Assembly (NCBI RefSeq): GCF_001644575.1
Contig: NZ_CP015597.1
Location: 62,001-126,000 of the forward strand
Direction of reading: 5' to 3'
Length of the DNA: 64,000 bases
From: Mycobacterium adipatum
GTDB taxonomy: Bacteria > Actinomycetota > Actinomycetes > Mycobacteriales > Mycobacteriaceae
Shown here: one piece after another, positions 24,714 through 36,257 of the stretch
Numbering within the stretch: position 1 is the stretch's first letter
Layout of the letters: each line of letters starts with the position of its first letter
Notes under the pieces: generated by a model
Seen by the model: only the letters and a program-made list of their open reading frames with translations
Databases searched by the model: none
Told to the model about the DNA's origin: nothing
Translations under genes and position numbers: made by a program

Positions 24714-25001
24714 ATGTCTATCAGCGCAAGCGAAGCACGTCAGCGGCTGTTTCCCCTGCTGGAGCAAGTCAATACCGACCACGAGCCCGTCCGGATTACG
24801 TCCAAGGCCGGTGACGCAGTGTTGATGTCAGCGGACGATTACGACTCGTGGCAGGAGACCGTCTACCTGCTGCGATCTCCTGAGAACGCACGGCGGCTGA
24901 TGGAGGCCGTCGCCCGAGACAAAGGTTCTCAATCTCCTAATTCGGTGGATCACGCGACGACGATCGAGGAACTCGAGGAGATGTCCGGCGGCCAGGCGTG
25001 A
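24714..25001 (+). CDS. yefM: YefM/Phd-family antitoxin
   Basis: A 95-aa protein. The ATG at 24714 is preferred to 24684 because of a GTGGAAGG ribosome site and because [20 protein letters not shown] is the standard family start. '[26 protein letters not shown]' is the conserved DNA-binding core. The C-terminal acidic tail ([12 protein letters not shown]) would cover the toxin. It overlaps yoeB by four bases. Confidence 0.85.
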
Positions 25002-25255
25002 GAAGCATCCATTTCGACCCAGACGGATGGGACGACTTCCTGTACTGGCTGGCCACCGATCGGAAAACGGCGCGCAGGATCACGAGGCTGATCGCAGAGA
25101 TTCAACGAGATCCGTTCAACGGCATCGGGAAGCCGGAACCGTTGAAGGGCGACCTCTCCGGGTACTGGTCGCGGCGCATCGACGACGAGCACCGTCTGGT
25201 GTACCGGGCCGACGCCAATGAGGTGAAGATCCTGAAAGCCCGCTACCACTACTGA
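24998..25255 (+). CDS. yoeB: YoeB-family mRNA interferase toxin
   Basis: An 85-aa toxin, full length: '[50 protein letters not shown]' shortened here to its key parts (GKPEPLKG loop, '[14 protein letters not shown]', 'KARYHY' end), which are the diagnostic YoeB/Txe features including the terminal His-Tyr. The family binds ribosomes and cleaves mRNA. It is the second gene after yefM, coupled by a four-base overlap, and convergent with a truncated antitoxin gene. Confidence 0.9.
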
Positions 25256-26557: not shown

Positions 26558-27964
26558 GTGGAGCGCATTGGTCCTGAACTGGTCATCGGTTTGGTGTCGC
26601 CGGTCGGTATGGACACCAGTGACTTGGCGGGCAAGGTTCAGGGAATCCTGGCGGACTGCGATTACACGGCGGTCAATATCAAGCTTTCCGGGCTATTGCC
26701 GACTGAACCTGCGCCCGCGGGTGAGTCGGAGGATCAGAGGATCCGTCGGCTGATCCGTGCGGGGAACCAGTTTTGTAGGGATAACAATGAGGATCCGGCT
26801 TCGATCGCCCGGTTAGCGGTGGCGGCGGTCCGCGCTCAGAGGATCGCCCTGTATCGCAGTGACGGCGATACGCGGCCGGCTGCAGAGATCTTGCCCGGAC
26901 GACCGCGCACGGCCTACATCCTGCAGTCGTTGAAACGGCGGGAGGAAGTGCAGCTGCTCCGGGAGGTCTACGGCAATCAGTTCGTGTTGGTCGGCAGCCA
27001 GAGCAGCGTTGCTGAACGCACCGAGAATTTGATGCAGCGCAACCTGTCGGCCAGCGACCCGGCGGGGAAGCGGCAAATTGTCGAGGAGTTGATCGGTGTC
27101 GACGCTGATGACCGCGAGCCTTTTGGCCAGAACGTCATCGACACCTACCCGCAGGCGGACTTCTTCGTCCGCAACAACGACCGAGGCGAGATCAACCGAA
27201 TTGTGGGTTTGCTGTTCGGTGAGCCTGTCGAGCCGACTATCGGTGAGTATGCGATGTATGTCGCGCGTGCCAGTAGAGCGCGCTCGTTGGCGGCGAGCCG
27301 AAAAGTGGGTGCGGCCATCGTTGTTGGTGATGCGGTGGTCGCTACGGGCTATAACGACGTGCCCTACGGGCAGACGCCTGATGTGCAGCAAGGTGTGGAT
27401 ACCAGCGAGAGGTTCAAGAGGGACAACTTGCGCGACACGGTGCAGCGGTTGAAGTCTGCCGGCCTGCTCGCTGAGGGTCTGGAAGGTGACGGCGTTGATC
27501 AAGCCGCGGCCGCTCTGAAGGGCGGGGAATTGATGAGCGTTATCGAGTATCAACGCGCGGTGCATGCCGAAGCGCGCGCCATCGACGACGCGACCGTCCG
27601 GGGTGTGTCGCCTGCGCAGGGCACTCTGTATGTGACGACCTATCCCTGTCATTTGTGTTACAAGCACGCTCTGTCGGTGCGTTTGAGCAGGGTGGAGTAC
27701 ATCGAGCCTTACCCGAAGAGTCGGGCTGTTCGTATGTTCTCGGAGGGTGCCGAAGACAGGTTGAAGCCGTTTGCCGGGGTCGCCCCGCGTCGGTATATCG
27801 GAATCTTCGACGACCGCCCGGCTTTTATGTCGGACGCTTCTGGGATATTTCCTAAGCATGATCGGAGAGTCGCGCAGCCGCTGATTGGCGCCCAGCGTCA
27901 GGATGAGGACATCGCGGTTCTTGAACGCACCGCAATGAGCGGTCTGAATGAGGAGTTTCACTGA
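26558..27964 (+). CDS. Anti-phage dCTP deaminase-like protein
   Basis: A 468-aa two-domain protein. The C-terminal half has the zinc-dependent cytidine/deoxycytidylate deaminase signature: 'AVHAEARAID' (His336, Glu338) and 'TYPCHLCYKHAL' (Cys364, Cys367). The N-terminal half (about residues 1-220) resembles the nucleotide-kinase-like domain of AvcD-type anti-phage deaminases, which deplete dCTP during infection. Its phosphate-binding loop is degenerate ('GLVSPVGMDTSDLAG', without GKS/T). A leaderless promoter precedes GTG 26558. The stop overlaps a 58-aa gene. Confidence 0.7.
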   Translation: MERIGPELVIGLVSPVGMDTSDLAGKVQGILADCDYTAVNIKLSGLLPTEPAPAGESEDQRIRRLIRAGNQFCRDNNEDPASIARLAVAAVRAQRIALYRSDGDTRPAAEILPGRPRTAYILQSLKRREEVQLLREVYGNQFVLVGSQSSVAERTENLMQRNLSASDPAGKRQIVEELIGVDADDREPFGQNVIDTYPQADFFVRNNDRGEINRIVGLLFGEPVEPTIGEYAMYVARASRARSLAASRKVGAAIVVGDAVVATGYNDVPYGQTPDVQQGVDTSERFKRDNLRDTVQRLKSAGLLAEGLEGDGVDQAAAALKGGELMSVIEYQRAVHAEARAIDDATVRGVSPAQGTLYVTTYPCHLCYKHALSVRLSRVEYIEPYPKSRAVRMFSEGAEDRLKPFAGVAPRRYIGIFDDRPAFMSDASGIFPKHDRRVAQPLIGAQRQDEDIAVLERTAMSGLNEEFH

Positions 27965-28140: not shown

Positions 28141-28424
28141 CGCCACCTATTTCAGCGGCGCATCCCGGCGTCGGCGTTTATCACTGGGGGTAGTGGCGAG
28201 GTCTGGATCTGCTTCAGCACGGTGAGGTTGGTGTCGACGTCGATGTCGGCGTCGGCGTCGAGCATGAGCCGGGTGAGACCTTGGGCGAGTGTGTCGGGTC
28301 CTGTCGTCGGGGGTCTCGGAGTTTCGTCACAGTGACGCGGGTGGCTTGACCCTGCATTCGGGGATGATTCCGACCGGAAGAGGTGTTAACCTAGTTGCGA
28401 GCAAAGGAACCGGCCCTCCGGGCT

Positions 28425-29183
28425 TTAAGCCTCGACAGTCGGTCTGGCCCTCGGTGTAGCTACGGCAGCCGGGGGCTGCTTCATTTCTGGGGTCGGGTGG
28501 CCGGACTGCGGCGTGGGCAGCGCCACGAAGTGGGTCTGGTCCTTGATCACGTCGAACAGGCTGCGGTCGCTGTGGGTGATGGTGCGCCGATACGCCGCGG
28601 CCACAAGATCGGGTAGCCACAACAAGCGCTCACATGCCGGTGAGATCTGCACGAGCCGGGTCTGTCGAGGAACCCGTCCTGCTGAGATCAGTTCTTTGTG
28701 GTTGAGCTGGTCCTTGTTCTTGAAGTTGCTCTGGTTGCGCTCCTCCAGGATGAGCAGGTCCACCGCGTCCCAGACGCCGGGCCGGCCGGCGGCCAGCTCG
28801 ACGGCCAGGGCGTGGTAGCACTCCCGGCGCGCCCCTTCGGCGTCGGCGTCCTCGGCGTCGACGTTGACTCGGTGGGCGACCACGCACGGTTCGACGCCTT
28901 CGGCGAGGTAGTCGAGCATCTCCTGCGTCAGGGCCCGCCCGTCGTCGGTCTGCAAGGCGTCGCAGGTGTGCCAGTAGTCGCTGCCGGCGATTTCGCCGAG
29001 CCCGGTCCGCAGTGTGTCCATGTCCTTGACGGCCACCAGCACGGCGGTCAGGACGTAGAACGAGCCGCGGTGGGTGCCGTTGGCCGGGGCCTGGTACGAC
29101 TCGTCGAGGAACGCGACCGGCCCCTTGGTGCGCTTGTAGGCGTCGTCGACGACACGCTGAACCGGATCAATGTAGCCGCCCAC
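28425..29183 (-). CDS. DUF3800-like protein
   Basis: A 252-aa protein with the DUF3800 pattern: 'GPVAFLDESYQAP' (Asp-Glu-Ser near the N-terminus), 'SFYVLTAVLVAVKDMDTLRTGL', then 'VVAHRVNV', 'RECYHALAVELA' and 'DLLILEERNQ'. DUF3800 is thought to have an RNase H-like fold and is often found in mobile and defence regions. The GTG or ATG at 29183 lies five bases after the stop of the 580-aa repeat protein gene, so the two form an operon. Its nuclease nature is inferred from fold. Confidence 0.5.
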   Translation of the reverse strand: MGGYIDPVQRVVDDAYKRTKGPVAFLDESYQAPANGTHRGSFYVLTAVLVAVKDMDTLRTGLGEIAGSDYWHTCDALQTDDGRALTQEMLDYLAEGVEPCVVAHRVNVDAEDADAEGARRECYHALAVELAAGRPGVWDAVDLLILEERNQSNFKNKDQLNHKELISAGRVPRQTRLVQISPACERLLWLPDLVAAAYRRTITHSDRSLFDVIKDQTHFVALPTPQSGHPTPEMKQPPAAVATPRARPTVEA

Positions 29184-29188
29184 TGCGA

Positions 29189-30931
29189 TCAGCTCGCCTC
29201 GGTGGTGCGGCGCACCGGGGCCTCGGATGTCTGATCGGCGCGGGCCAGGCGGCGGGCCTTGCGTCGCAGCCGGTCACCTTCTGCTGCGGTGCCGCCGCAG
29301 GCGATCGCCGCAGCCGGCCACGTCACCCTCGGCTTACTCTTCTCGCGCAGAATCTCGCGCTCGCGGTCGGTGAACTTCCACCACAGCCGGGCGATCCGCG
29401 GGTCGGCGATCTCGGTGTCGTCGACGTCGGCCGGATCGGGTGCCGCTCGATCTGGAACGAGGTCACGAAGCACTGTGACCGAGCTGTCGGCGTCGGACAC
29501 CTTGACCGGCTGGTCGAGAGACAGCAGCGGCTTGCCTCGGAAACGGAGGTTGGGGTCGGTGCTCAGCCGGCTGACCGCCCGATGTTCCTTCAAGGTCAGG
29601 GCGCGCAGCCGGGGGCAAGGATCGAAGGTCCCCGCCAGCAGGTTGTCCGGCAGCCATGAGCCGACGTTCATCAGGACCAACGTGGCCGAGCACACCAAAT
29701 CCCAAGTCGCGTAACTGAAGTCGAGCCACTCGATCAGGAAGTCCCGCACCGCGTCCCGCGCCTTCGGGTCGTTGCGCTCTAGCATGCGGACGATCCGCAG
29801 CGCATCCCACAGCGCAGACTGCGCCGCGCGCATGCCGCGGTCGGCGAGCGGCCACAGCGACCGCATCATCTCGGTGATCGACTCCGCAGGGCGGAACAGA
29901 TCGTTCATCCATGCCGACGGCTCAAGGAACCGCGACGTTCCGTACATGAACTCGTGGATCGAACGCTGCGAGCGGCGCATCATGTCGTCGAACGCGGACG
30001 GATAGGCGCCCAGAGCTGCGTGGCGTAGCTGATCGGTGATGCCGGCCGCGTGGCCGCCGAGCAGGTTGTCGACACCCCACCGATCCGACAGGCCGGCATC
30101 TAGCGACGAGCGGAACCCAGCCAGCGGGTCCACCCCGTGCCGGGCAAGCACGTCGAAGGCCGACGACCGAGATCCGAAGGCGTCGATCGCGACGCGCGCA
30201 CCGGCGCCAAGACCGAGCCCGAGGTCGGGTCCCTGGATACCTTTGAGGTGATCGAGAGGTGAGGTGAAGGAGCCGGGCCCGATGATGTCGGCGAGCGCGG
30301 AGCGGCCTATCAGGTCGTCGGTGCGCTGCTTGAAGGTATCCATGGCGGCCTGCGCACCGGCGCCGAGGCCGAGCCCGAGGTCAGGTCCCTGGATACCTTT
30401 GAGGTGATCGAGAGGTGAGGTGAAGGAGCCGGGCCCGATGATGTCGGCGAGCGCGGAGCGGCCCATCAGGTCGTCGGTGCGCTGCTTGAAGGTATCCATG
30501 GCGGCCCGCGCGCCAGCGCCGAGGCCGAGATCAAGGTGTGGGCCGCGAACGTCCTTCATGAAGTCGATCGGGGACGTCAGGTCGCGCGCACCGATGATGT
30601 CGGAGAGGCTGCCGCCGAGAATGTCGTGCGCCCGCCCGGAGATGGCCTTCGTGAGAGCGTCACCAGCTGCCTGGGCGGCAGCACTTAGACCGAAGTCGAA
30701 CTTCTCGCCCCGCAGCTGATTGGCGGGCGACGCCCACGCACCGATGCTGGCAGCGCCCAGTGCGTCATGGGCGGCGCCGCGGATGCCGGCGTTGAGGACG
30801 TCGGACAGTGGGCCGCCGGTCATCGCCGACCTGATCCCCTCGGTGACGGTGTTGGTCACGGCGGTGCGATCGAGATGTTCGTCGTCGTCGGGTGCGGACG
30901 CGGCGTGGTCGCGTTCGGGGTCCTCGTTCAT
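29189..30931 (-). CDS. Large protein with 52-aa tandem repeats
   Basis: A 580-aa protein. The ATG at 30931 has a strong AAGGAGGA ribosome site. Residues about 130-250 hold near-identical tandem units of 52 residues ('SALADIIGPGSFTSPLDHLK', 'GLGLGAGAQAAMDTFKQR'), two almost exact and one diverged. The C-terminal part is helical, with 'WLDFSYATWDLVCSATLVLMNVGSWL' and then 'WKFTDREREILREKSKPRVTW', an HTH-like segment. There is no signal peptide. It precedes the DUF3800-like gene by five bases. I do not recognise the family. Confidence 0.5.
   Translation of the reverse strand: MNEDPERDHAASAPDDDEHLDRTAVTNTVTEGIRSAMTGGPLSDVLNAGIRGAAHDALGAASIGAWASPANQLRGEKFDFGLSAAAQAAGDALTKAISGRAHDILGGSLSDIIGARDLTSPIDFMKDVRGPHLDLGLGAGARAAMDTFKQRTDDLMGRSALADIIGPGSFTSPLDHLKGIQGPDLGLGLGAGAQAAMDTFKQRTDDLIGRSALADIIGPGSFTSPLDHLKGIQGPDLGLGLGAGARVAIDAFGSRSSAFDVLARHGVDPLAGFRSSLDAGLSDRWGVDNLLGGHAAGITDQLRHAALGAYPSAFDDMMRRSQRSIHEFMYGTSRFLEPSAWMNDLFRPAESITEMMRSLWPLADRGMRAAQSALWDALRIVRMLERNDPKARDAVRDFLIEWLDFSYATWDLVCSATLVLMNVGSWLPDNLLAGTFDPCPRLRALTLKEHRAVSRLSTDPNLRFRGKPLLSLDQPVKVSDADSSVTVLRDLVPDRAAPDPADVDDTEIADPRIARLWWKFTDREREILREKSKPRVTWPAAAIACGGTAAEGDRLRRKARRLARADQTSEAPVRRTTEAS
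30190..30505. repeat. 156-base tandem repeats inside the 580-aa gene
   Basis: Two consecutive 156-base copies differ at only a few positions (for example CTTTGAGGTGATCGAGAGG begins at 30241 and again at 30397). The period keeps the reading frame (52 codons). A third, more diverged copy follows to about 30640. Confidence 0.8.
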
Positions 30932-35186: not shown

Positions 35187-35563
35187 CGTGTCGTGTCGTC
35201 GTCCATGTCGATGATGTCGTAAATCGCGTCGTGGGCCTTCTGGCCTTCGGTGCGCACCGGCAAAGCTTGGCGGCTGTAGTCAGGCCGCGACATCGGCTGT
35301 GCCGCGGCGGGGACGTGGCCGTAGAAGTGGTAGTGGTTCACCTGTGTCAGCTGCGGTGATGCCGTCTTTTGACCGCGTGCGGGCGTCCGTCGGCGGTGGC
35401 GCTGGCGGAGCGCCAGGCGCGCGATGCGCCGCAGCAGTGGCCAGAAGAACCACAGCGTGACGGTGAGGACGAGGCTGTACCCGAGAGCCTCGTAGGGGTC
35501 GATGTGCAGGAAGTGTGTCGTGGCGCCGGTCAAGAGCGCCGCGATGATCAGGGTGCGTATCAC
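35183..35563 (-). CDS. Membrane protein, 126 aa
   Basis: From GTG 35563, overlapping the vapC stop as GTGA. Two hydrophobic segments (about residues 2-14 and 27-47) are followed by a basic loop (RRIARLALRQRHRRR) and a polar tail with 'NHYHFYGHVPAAA'. It ends in a four-base overlap with the discoidin-like gene, so the two probably form a membrane pair. Function unknown. Confidence 0.5.
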   Translation of the reverse strand: MIRTLIIAALLTGATTHFLHIDPYEALGYSLVLTVTLWFFWPLLRRIARLALRQRHRRRTPARGQKTASPQLTQVNHYHFYGHVPAAAQPMSRPDYSRQALPVRTEGQKAHDAIYDIIDMDDDTTR

Positions 35564-35964
35564 GGTGATTCCCCTCCGGGGCTGACGGTGGTGATGTGAT
35601 GGCCGGCTGCGGCGTCGGCGAGTTGGGGGTCGTAGGTGACGAGGGTGCGCAGTCGTGGTCCGGCGCTCAGGGCCGATGCGATGTGCAGTGCGTCGACGGT
35701 GCGTGCAGGGCTGGGGGTAAGCGCCACGGCGGCGTCGAGGAGGCGCTCGGTGACGGCCACGGTGTCGAGTCCGGCCAGGACGTGGTGGGCATGCCCGGTG
35801 GCGTCTGGAGGTAGCGCGGCCATGGCGCGGAGCAGCTCGGCTCGTGACAGCGCGCAGGTGATCCATCGGGTGTCGGTGTGCGCGCTGAGGTATGCGGTTA
35901 GGGCGGCGGATTCGGGTGCTTCGTCGATGAGTTTCATGAGGGCGGTGGGGTCGAGATAGATCAC
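35560..35964 (-). CDS. vapC: VapC-family PIN-domain toxin
   Basis: A 134-aa PIN-domain ribonuclease. 'MIYLDPTALMKLIDE' gives Asp5. 'SRAELLRAMA' gives Glu43. 'RTVDALHIASA' gives Asp91. 'TLVTYDPQLADAA' gives Asp112. All four acidic metal-binding positions are present. It is coupled to the VapB-type gene upstream (35961-35964 overlap) and to the 126-aa membrane gene downstream. The family cleaves specific tRNAs or rRNA. Confidence 0.9.
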   Translation of the reverse strand: MIYLDPTALMKLIDEAPESAALTAYLSAHTDTRWITCALSRAELLRAMAALPPDATGHAHHVLAGLDTVAVTERLLDAAVALTPSPARTVDALHIASALSAGPRLRTLVTYDPQLADAAAGHHITTVSPGGESP

Positions 35965-36221
35965 CGGTCGTCCCGTGGGACGGCGGTGCTGGTGGTCTGG
36001 CGGTACGGGCGGGGTGGGCGTTTGAGGATGTCGGTGACGCTGCTGCGCGCGGCGGTGACTTCCTTGCTGGCGATAAGCGCGGTCCAGGGGTCGTAGGAGG
36101 CGGGGATCATCTGCGCGACGGGGTGTCCGTTGTTGGTGATCTCGACGGTTTCGCCGGCGGCCACCTCGCGTAGGACCATGGCTGCATTCTGGCGCAGTTC
36201 ACGGACACCGTAGCTCTTCAT
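35961..36221 (-). CDS. vapB: VapB/Phd-family antitoxin
   Basis: An 86-aa protein. ATG 36221 gives MKSYGVRELRQNAAMVLREV, the normal Phd/YefM-type start, with 'VEITNNGHPVAQMIPA' as the DNA-binding core and an Arg-rich end. The -10 TACCGT (minus strand, 36233-36228) lies six bases upstream, so the transcript is probably leaderless. Two TGTACA boxes surround this promoter. Confidence 0.85.
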   Translation of the reverse strand: MKSYGVRELRQNAAMVLREVAAGETVEITNNGHPVAQMIPASYDPWTALIASKEVTAARSSVTDILKRPPRPYRQTTSTAVPRDDR

Positions 36222-36257
36222 GTACACACGGTAGCTCGATGTAGCACACCGTGTACA
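36221..36257. promoter_or_regulatory. vapBC promoter and TGTACA operator pair
   Basis: TGTACAC at 36221-36227 and GTGTACA at 36251-36257 form an inverted pair. TGTACA is also the core bound by YefM/Phd antitoxins. The minus-strand -10 TACCGT (36228-36233) lies between them. Autorepression is inferred. Confidence 0.6.

Follow-up and report, generated by a model that had tools for sequence, protein, structure and literature searches.

The stretch of DNA analyzed here (64,000 nucleotides, hereafter the window) belongs to contig NZ_CP015597.1 of Mycobacterium adipatum and carries a gene for a DUF3800-like protein, a gene for a repeat protein directly upstream of it and, facing the end of the former gene, a small structured RNA. 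The original prediction, which was made from the sequence of the window alone, had presented the two protein-coding genes as an undescribed two-gene module. The gene pair is as described there, i.e., the 252-amino-acid DUF3800-like gene starts five bases after the stop of the 580-amino-acid repeat-protein gene, with both genes on the - strand; however, our comparisons across genomes indicate that the steadier companion of the DUF3800-like gene is the structured RNA rather than the repeat protein. The features of the locus are as follows (positions are those of the window).

28399..28481, + strand: core of a structured non-coding RNA (ncRNA), ~85 nucleotides (nt), convergent with the DUF3800-like open reading frame (ORF) and overlapping its end in antisense
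28399-28404 with 28477-28481, + strand: helix P1, which closes the RNA
28409-28443, + strand: P3-P4 arm (12 pairs, all with changes on both sides)
28448-28475, + strand: P2 arm (7 pairs), plus the 2-pair P2b with the loop UACG
28387..28392, + strand: TAACCT, a predicted -10 box located 6 nt ahead of the RNA
28464..28490, + strand: hairpin resembling a terminator, with a T-rich tail, at the RNA 3' end (2 such sites found by scanning the region, with 1.3 expected)
28425..29183, - strand: DUF3800-like gene, 252 amino acids, predicted RNase H2-like fold
29189..30931, - strand: partner protein, 580 amino acids, optional, with variable N-terminal repeats, a conserved C-terminal region and a possible sigma-region-4-like helix-turn-helix (HTH)
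30195..30607, - strand: DNA of the 52-residue repeats (period 156), from repeat analysis

The DUF3800-like gene and its convergent RNA

The proposed relation to DUF3800 appears to be a remote one: 4 of 36 aligned proteins match PF12686 at E ≤ 0.01 (best, 1.1e-5), but the window protein itself gave no match. The RNase H fold that had been suggested for the protein is borne out by structure comparison of its predicted model, which matched RNase H2-like chains, with Argonaute PIWI chains further down the same list; ToxN was not among the structure matches listed. Identity to RNase HII / RNase H2 is just 7-14% among the matches listed and, unlike these enzymes, the DUF3800-like gene is patchy (18 full-length matches among the 396 genus genomes). 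Across the 36 aligned proteins, D27, E28 and D192 are invariant and E147 nearly so, and these acidic residues are putative catalytic residues of the RNase H2-like fold. Most aligned relatives stop ~29 residues sooner than the window protein, whose extra C-terminal tail is encoded opposite the RNA strand. The gene was found in 27 plasmid records of at least 15 kb, while some loci lie on contigs of 1.5 to 6.2 Mb and are therefore probably chromosomal. On three small mycobacterial plasmids of 18-32 kb (L148, L149, and L150) ParA lies near the module, on the opposite strand, which suggested a tie to plasmid maintenance.

A megablast search with the region revealed ~83% DNA identity beside the gene in Nocardia and Rhodococcus plasmids, and blastn with the element alone gave matches at 23 of the 42 genome loci encoding DUF3800-like relatives. 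For broader searches, two covariance models were used: R1, on the gene's strand, was built from 36 gene-adjacent copies and no phage sequence, and R2, on the opposite strand, has a training set that includes phage copies and solo copies (i.e., copies without the gene). R1 scored 50 bits or more at 35 of the 42 loci, a count that is partly by construction because 30 of the 35 were in its training set (L024, which has the same sequence as L023, L031, L036, L041, and L042 were not). The RNA lies beside the 3' end of the gene, and convergent with it, in 34 of these 35 loci, the exception being Tsukamurella (L031, apparently identical to locus L190), in which the RNA is 5' of the gene. Among the loci below 50 bits, two have truncated genes (L013 and L039), one is on a contig that stops 20 bases past the match (L027), and one has the RNA at the expected place with 20.6 bits by R1 and 24.8 by R2 (L038). 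Within the genus (396 genomes), the RNA is beside 17 of the 18 full-length genes (184 bits or more), and the 18th gene (in G392) ends 30 bases from the contig edge.

The strand of the RNA was assigned from its pairing failures. Counted on the gene's strand, 86.2% of the cells paired and 16 of the 26 pairs had changes on both sides, with the failures comprising 84 A.C cells vs. 18 G.U and 43 others; since A.C mismatches become G.U on the opposite strand, the RNA strand was reassigned. Together with these mismatches, the -10 box, the T-rich tail, the orientation in phages and the Tsukamurella gene order favor the other strand, and an RNA on the gene's strand was thus rejected. On the opposite strand, 94.5% of the cells paired among 53 copies (41 gene-adjacent, 6 solo, and 6 phage), compared to 30-49% in slid controls, and both-side changes are seen for 21 of the 26 pairs (174 cells; none of 500 shuffles reached as many). 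R2 matches the window at 28385-28491 with 103.8 bits and outscores R1 at most shared loci, yet it scores lower at L033, L035, and L036, and the gain over R1 is not an independent test because phage and solo copies were used in training R2. With the first alignment (A3), RNAalifold returned the P2 arm and P2b only (8 pairs), the other helices being recognized by inspection and then counted, and the single-sequence fold of the window RNA reproduces the same arms.

The RNA probably has its own promoter, judging from the letters upstream of it. Of 41 gene-adjacent copies, 36 have a TANNNT box 3-10 nt ahead of P1 (mean 3.6 and maximum 10 when letters were shuffled; 0-2 copies in four other windows), as do 3 of 6 solo bacterial copies and none of the 6 phage copies. 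In the Tsukamurella locus, TTGACA-17-TATTCT, the RNA and the gene follow one another in this order, with RNA and gene sharing a strand. The 3' tail is T-rich across the gene-adjacent copies (mean 4.5 of 9).

RNA copies without the gene in bacteria and phages

At a threshold of at least 50 bits, the genus holds 25 RNA places, 17 of which are by a full-length gene, 1 by a broken gene, and 7 solo. Five of the solo RNAs are in genomes without any protein-profile match (G309, G087, G049, G002, and G290); of the other two, one is in a genome whose only protein match is weak and elsewhere (G257) and one in a genome where gene and RNA are also found on another contig (G189). At the G257 locus (L119), the kinase flank aligns to the window up to 31112 (95.1% over 1473 bases), and the RNA (91.5%, window 28522-28381) follows within 8 bases of this flank with the -10 box kept. 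That is, the protein cassette is absent and the RNA with its box is present, a state that represents either loss of the cassette or the condition before its gain. Overall the RNA is rare, with 5 of 397 genomes of the order and 36 of 396 of the genus having it when weak matches are counted.

Broken genes and other surroundings of the RNA were also seen. At L124 (1004-1600) the DUF3800-like gene is split into two short frames and the adjoining RNA is intact (80 bits), and at L042 (8001-8218) the match to the gene covers no more than its last ~66 residues, with an RNA of 93.1 bits beside the remnant. A solo RNA at L126 (1-1061) is located ~440 bases past an ATPase-like gene (SMC/AAA matches below cut-offs) and a small ORF, which may form a defence operon.

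Copies of the RNA are also carried by phages. The window element matched (blastn) two records of Rhodococcus phage E3 and eight Mycobacterium phage records, and the Courthouse copy matched 19 Mycobacterium phage records and Nocardia phage NTR1; the six Mycobacterium phages that were looked up belong to Omegavirus. Sequence patterns revealed further copies on IMG/VR contigs, where, out of 36 distinct pattern contigs, the 7 with an R1 match were kept and 29 were dropped. R1 scored 86.7 for E3, 78.0 for L138, 71.2 for L160, 37.5-61.5 for the Omegavirus loci, 30.4 for NTR1, 30.2 for L152, and 50.2 for the prophage-like L130. In the six phage copies that were aligned, 22-26 pairs are kept despite letter changes in the stems, and the UACG loop is unchanged in all six. 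We discarded 20-base matches to Phrappuccino (two records) and Settecandela (one record), as the Phrappuccino stretch (L145) gave no model match. A query with the clade-B RNA in phages gave one chance-like match, and the L160 RNA queried against plasmids gave none.

The RNA lies near or between tRNA genes, on their strand, in L138, L152, L160, and NTR1; in E3 and the Omegavirus loci it comes after the end of a gene that shares its strand. L138 (1188-1761) has two divergent copies on the + strand, ~470 bases apart and near tRNA genes, the second of which scored 27.9 bits and has different stems. Terminase genes are near the RNA in L138, L152, and L130. The one L160 protein that was scanned matched two PHROGs of unknown function and no recognized phage gene; L160 may represent a mycobacterial tRNA array such as those described in PMC12803027. 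The window protein had no tblastn match among 50,697 phage records at E ≤ 0.01, and two peptide patterns for the DUF3800-like gene in IMG/VR picked 26 stretches, none of which was confirmed.

The repeat protein and the neighborhood

The near-exact repeats noted in the 580-amino-acid partner are real (50 of 52 residues identical between two adjacent copies; best of 200 shuffles, 14). The partner was searched by a profile of its C-terminal region, the AlphaFold2 model of which is too poor to read past possible HTH helices. Of the 42 genome loci, 5 have the partner, and these are all from mycobacteria (the contig edge is too close to the start of L039 and L041 to judge its presence there). Among the 396 genus genomes, 11 have it, with the DUF3800-like gene adjoining in 8; the matches in the remaining 3 are weak (24.8-51.2 bits), and two of these contain a stop. 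In plasmids, it occurs in 12 records representing about four plasmid types, all 12 of which have the DUF3800-like gene. Hence, the pair is a genuine and recurrent association in mycobacteria, but the partner is optional and the steadier RNA had been overlooked. Indeed, the DUF3800-like gene was without a detectable partner at 37 of 42 genome loci, in 15 of 27 plasmid records and in 10 of 18 genus genomes. This is the outcome that the original prediction had named as its refutation, so we rejected the two-gene module as the unit. A second clade has a YfbU protein with a ribbon-helix-helix (RHH)-type N-terminus as the upstream gene (two tested, L023 and L033, the RHH match of the latter being below cut-off), and the upstream genes of four more loci tested were mutually unrelated. 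These DNA-binding-like upstream proteins (repeat/HTH in mycobacteria, RHH-YfbU elsewhere) are optional accessory components and probably DNA-binding regulators.

The window is part of a 252,568-base contig in a genome of 6.05 Mb and two contigs. The contig carries an AAA_10 ATPase, which we read as VirB4-like, an FtsK-like protein and EccA/EccB type VII secretion genes, and therefore is most likely a mycobacterial conjugative megaplasmid. The deaminase next to the module (26558-27964, + strand), called anti-phage by the original prediction, is a relative of anti-phage dCTP deaminase (PADLOC dCTPase, 373.9 bits) but falls below the cut-off of NCBIfam NF041025 (284 vs. 400 bits). The stretch at 24714-25255 (+ strand) is 77.4% identical in DNA to mycobacterial plasmid genes for which a toxin-antitoxin pair of the YefM/YoeB type has been annotated, and at 35560-36227 (- strand) a PIN-domain protein overlaps a small upstream antitoxin-like ORF, a probable VapBC-type pair; thus, several addiction modules seem to be present in this plasmid stretch.

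Possible roles of the RNA and relation to known systems

The association of the RNA with the gene, its covariation and its phage copies are demonstrated at the level of sequence comparison. We see roughly even chances that the locus is an RNA-controlled nuclease module, that is, a nuclease with an RNA antitoxin, of which phages carry mimics. According to this model, the RNA would bind the DUF3800-like protein via its conserved loops and hold the nuclease inactive; loss of the RNA (e.g., by phage shutdown of host transcription) would release the nuclease, which would then cut nucleic acid and halt growth or infection; and phages would carry the orphan RNA, near tRNA genes or in operons, as an antitoxin mimic. 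A gene that is rarely without the RNA, an RNA that is viable alone and probably has its own promoter, and copies in phages together fit the prediction for an RNA antitoxin.

Type III toxin-antitoxin systems (ToxIN, AbiQ, CptIN, and TenpIN) and AbiF-RCd22 likewise have a structured RNA gene beside a protein, which there is toxic, and from this we infer a likeness in mechanism. The literature describes how phage phiTE can overcome toxIN by a toxI-like ncRNA or by acquiring toxI and how toxIN is activated through host transcription shutoff (PMC10853763), and how the RCd22 RNA neutralizes AbiF in cis and in trans, with type III antitoxin RNA being defined by tandem repeats (PMC12373285). The type III antitoxin consists of tandem repeats of about 34-50 nt, whereas here there is one ~85-nt two-arm RNA per gene-adjacent locus, and two RNA copies were found on the gene-less contig L138. 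Further, type III toxins have the ToxN/AbiQ fold, from which the fold predicted for the DUF3800-like protein, being RNase H-like, appears to differ.

Several points weigh against the RNA-antitoxin model. Type III RNAs lie upstream of the toxin gene and are cotranscribed with it, with a terminator between, while here the RNA is convergent in 34 of 35 loci and has its own -10 box. This box is missing in 5 of 41 gene-adjacent and 3 of 6 solo bacterial copies, and a strict sigma-70 scan found no promoter in the window, so the case for the -10 box is a comparative one. The folding energy of the RNA is ordinary (z -0.83; 43 of 200 shuffles fold equally well or better), the structure was derived by alignment inspection and therefore favors itself in the counts, and kinship can beat shuffles without structure. 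The distant relatives L037, L040, and L043 have no significant RNA match. In Omegavirus (six genomes), the RNA sits between the capsid protease and major capsid genes, which perhaps means late expression, odd for counter-defence. Finally, toxicity, inhibition, binding, cleavage, and defence are all properties that we infer from sequence.

It is unlikely, in our assessment, that the RNA is instead a working cofactor or guide in an active ribonucleoprotein, the phage copies being inhibitors or stolen components. Such a role would suit the RNase H2-like fold (Argonaute PIWI chains ranked further down among the structure matches) and a gene that is seldom without the RNA, but there is no apparent guide-like variable segment; rather, the stems vary with compensation and several loop positions are fixed. 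In TnpB/OMEGA systems, the guide RNA is on the same strand as the gene and overlaps its 3' end, unlike the RNA here, whose strand appears to be opposite to that of the gene. Also in favor of a cofactor, DUF3800 is described in PMC10910872 as a predicted RNase H fold with catalytic rearrangement that is associated with putative ncRNAs, with TPR-DUF3800 linked to Cas12a2. The latter thus shares the predicted fold and the ncRNA links with our module; however, no Cas or TPR gene was recognized in the window module, which belongs to actinobacterial plasmids and genomes. Solo and phage RNAs without a nuclease fit an inhibitor more simply.

An improbable alternative is that the RNA is useful to phages and plasmids by itself, in a translation- or tRNA-related role, and that the DUF3800-like protein processes or regulates it. 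The phage tRNA genes nearby in the same orientation (four contigs) and the RNA in structural-gene operons are consistent with this, and phage tRNAs reportedly help to escape defences, including those that target tRNAs (PMC10264068, PMC11555353). The rarity of the RNA in the order and the genus, on the other hand, argues against a core function, and it is adjacent to most gene copies. We regard it as quite improbable that the RNA is a cis element, i.e., a bidirectional terminator or an antisense regulator of the DUF3800-like mRNA: its convergent order by the 3' end of the gene, its T-rich tail, and its overlap with the end of the ORF in the window would be expected, but the Tsukamurella RNA (L031) is upstream on the same strand, the RNA is solo at 7 of 25 places in the genus and occurs in gene-less phages, 36 of 41 gene-adjacent copies have a -10 box of their own, and a terminator would presumably need no two-arm fold with conserved loops. 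Plasmid addiction only, with protein and RNA stabilizing plasmids and having no anti-phage role, is the least probable reading, since the presence of the gene in 27 plasmid records (beside ParA on three small mycobacterial plasmids) and the other probable toxin-antitoxin pairs in the window have to be set against the phage-borne RNA copies and the probably chromosomal loci.

Conserved structured RNAs named for DUF3800 are likewise present in Rfam (DUF3800-I, RF02969, and DUF3800-IX, RF02968), and further DUF3800-associated families exist there. To our knowledge, no function has been assigned to them, and Weinberg 2017 is reportedly connected with these RNAs. The window RNA matched no Rfam 15 family, whether at gathering thresholds or with E allowed to reach 1, and 8 other loci gave no DUF3800 RNA family match at gathering; a search with DUF3800-I (RF02969) found no match in 149 genomes or in 14 controls and is therefore uninformative. 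Such DUF3800-associated structured RNAs have already been catalogued (accessible parts of PMC11701678 and PMC7657543), where orphan phage copies are not mentioned for them. Our literature search, mostly without subscription papers, returned no recognizable description of the window RNA, its orphan phage copies, its promoter or the gene/RNA asymmetry. Somewhat short of an even chance, and thus tentatively, we propose that the module represents a new RNA-antitoxin defence class of Actinobacteria, in which the effector would have an RNase H fold, the two-arm RNA its own promoter, and several unrelated actinophage lineages mimics of it (some of these sited among phage tRNA genes), with the conserved loops acting as a protein-binding code and the stems as a scaffold.

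RNAs adjacent to DUF3800 genes are thus a known kind, of which this one is outside the Rfam 15 families. What the locus offers is a natural experiment, in which the gene is rarely without the RNA, the RNA is often without the gene, and phage copies keep the fold while their stems are rewritten; therefore, function is directly testable in laboratory mycobacteria and their phages. If the RNA-antitoxin model is true, RNA-antitoxin systems would gain an effector fold, and phage tRNA clusters may hold RNA mimics besides tRNAs. Taken together, our results suggest a toxin or defence under RNA control, which viruses may be able to turn off.
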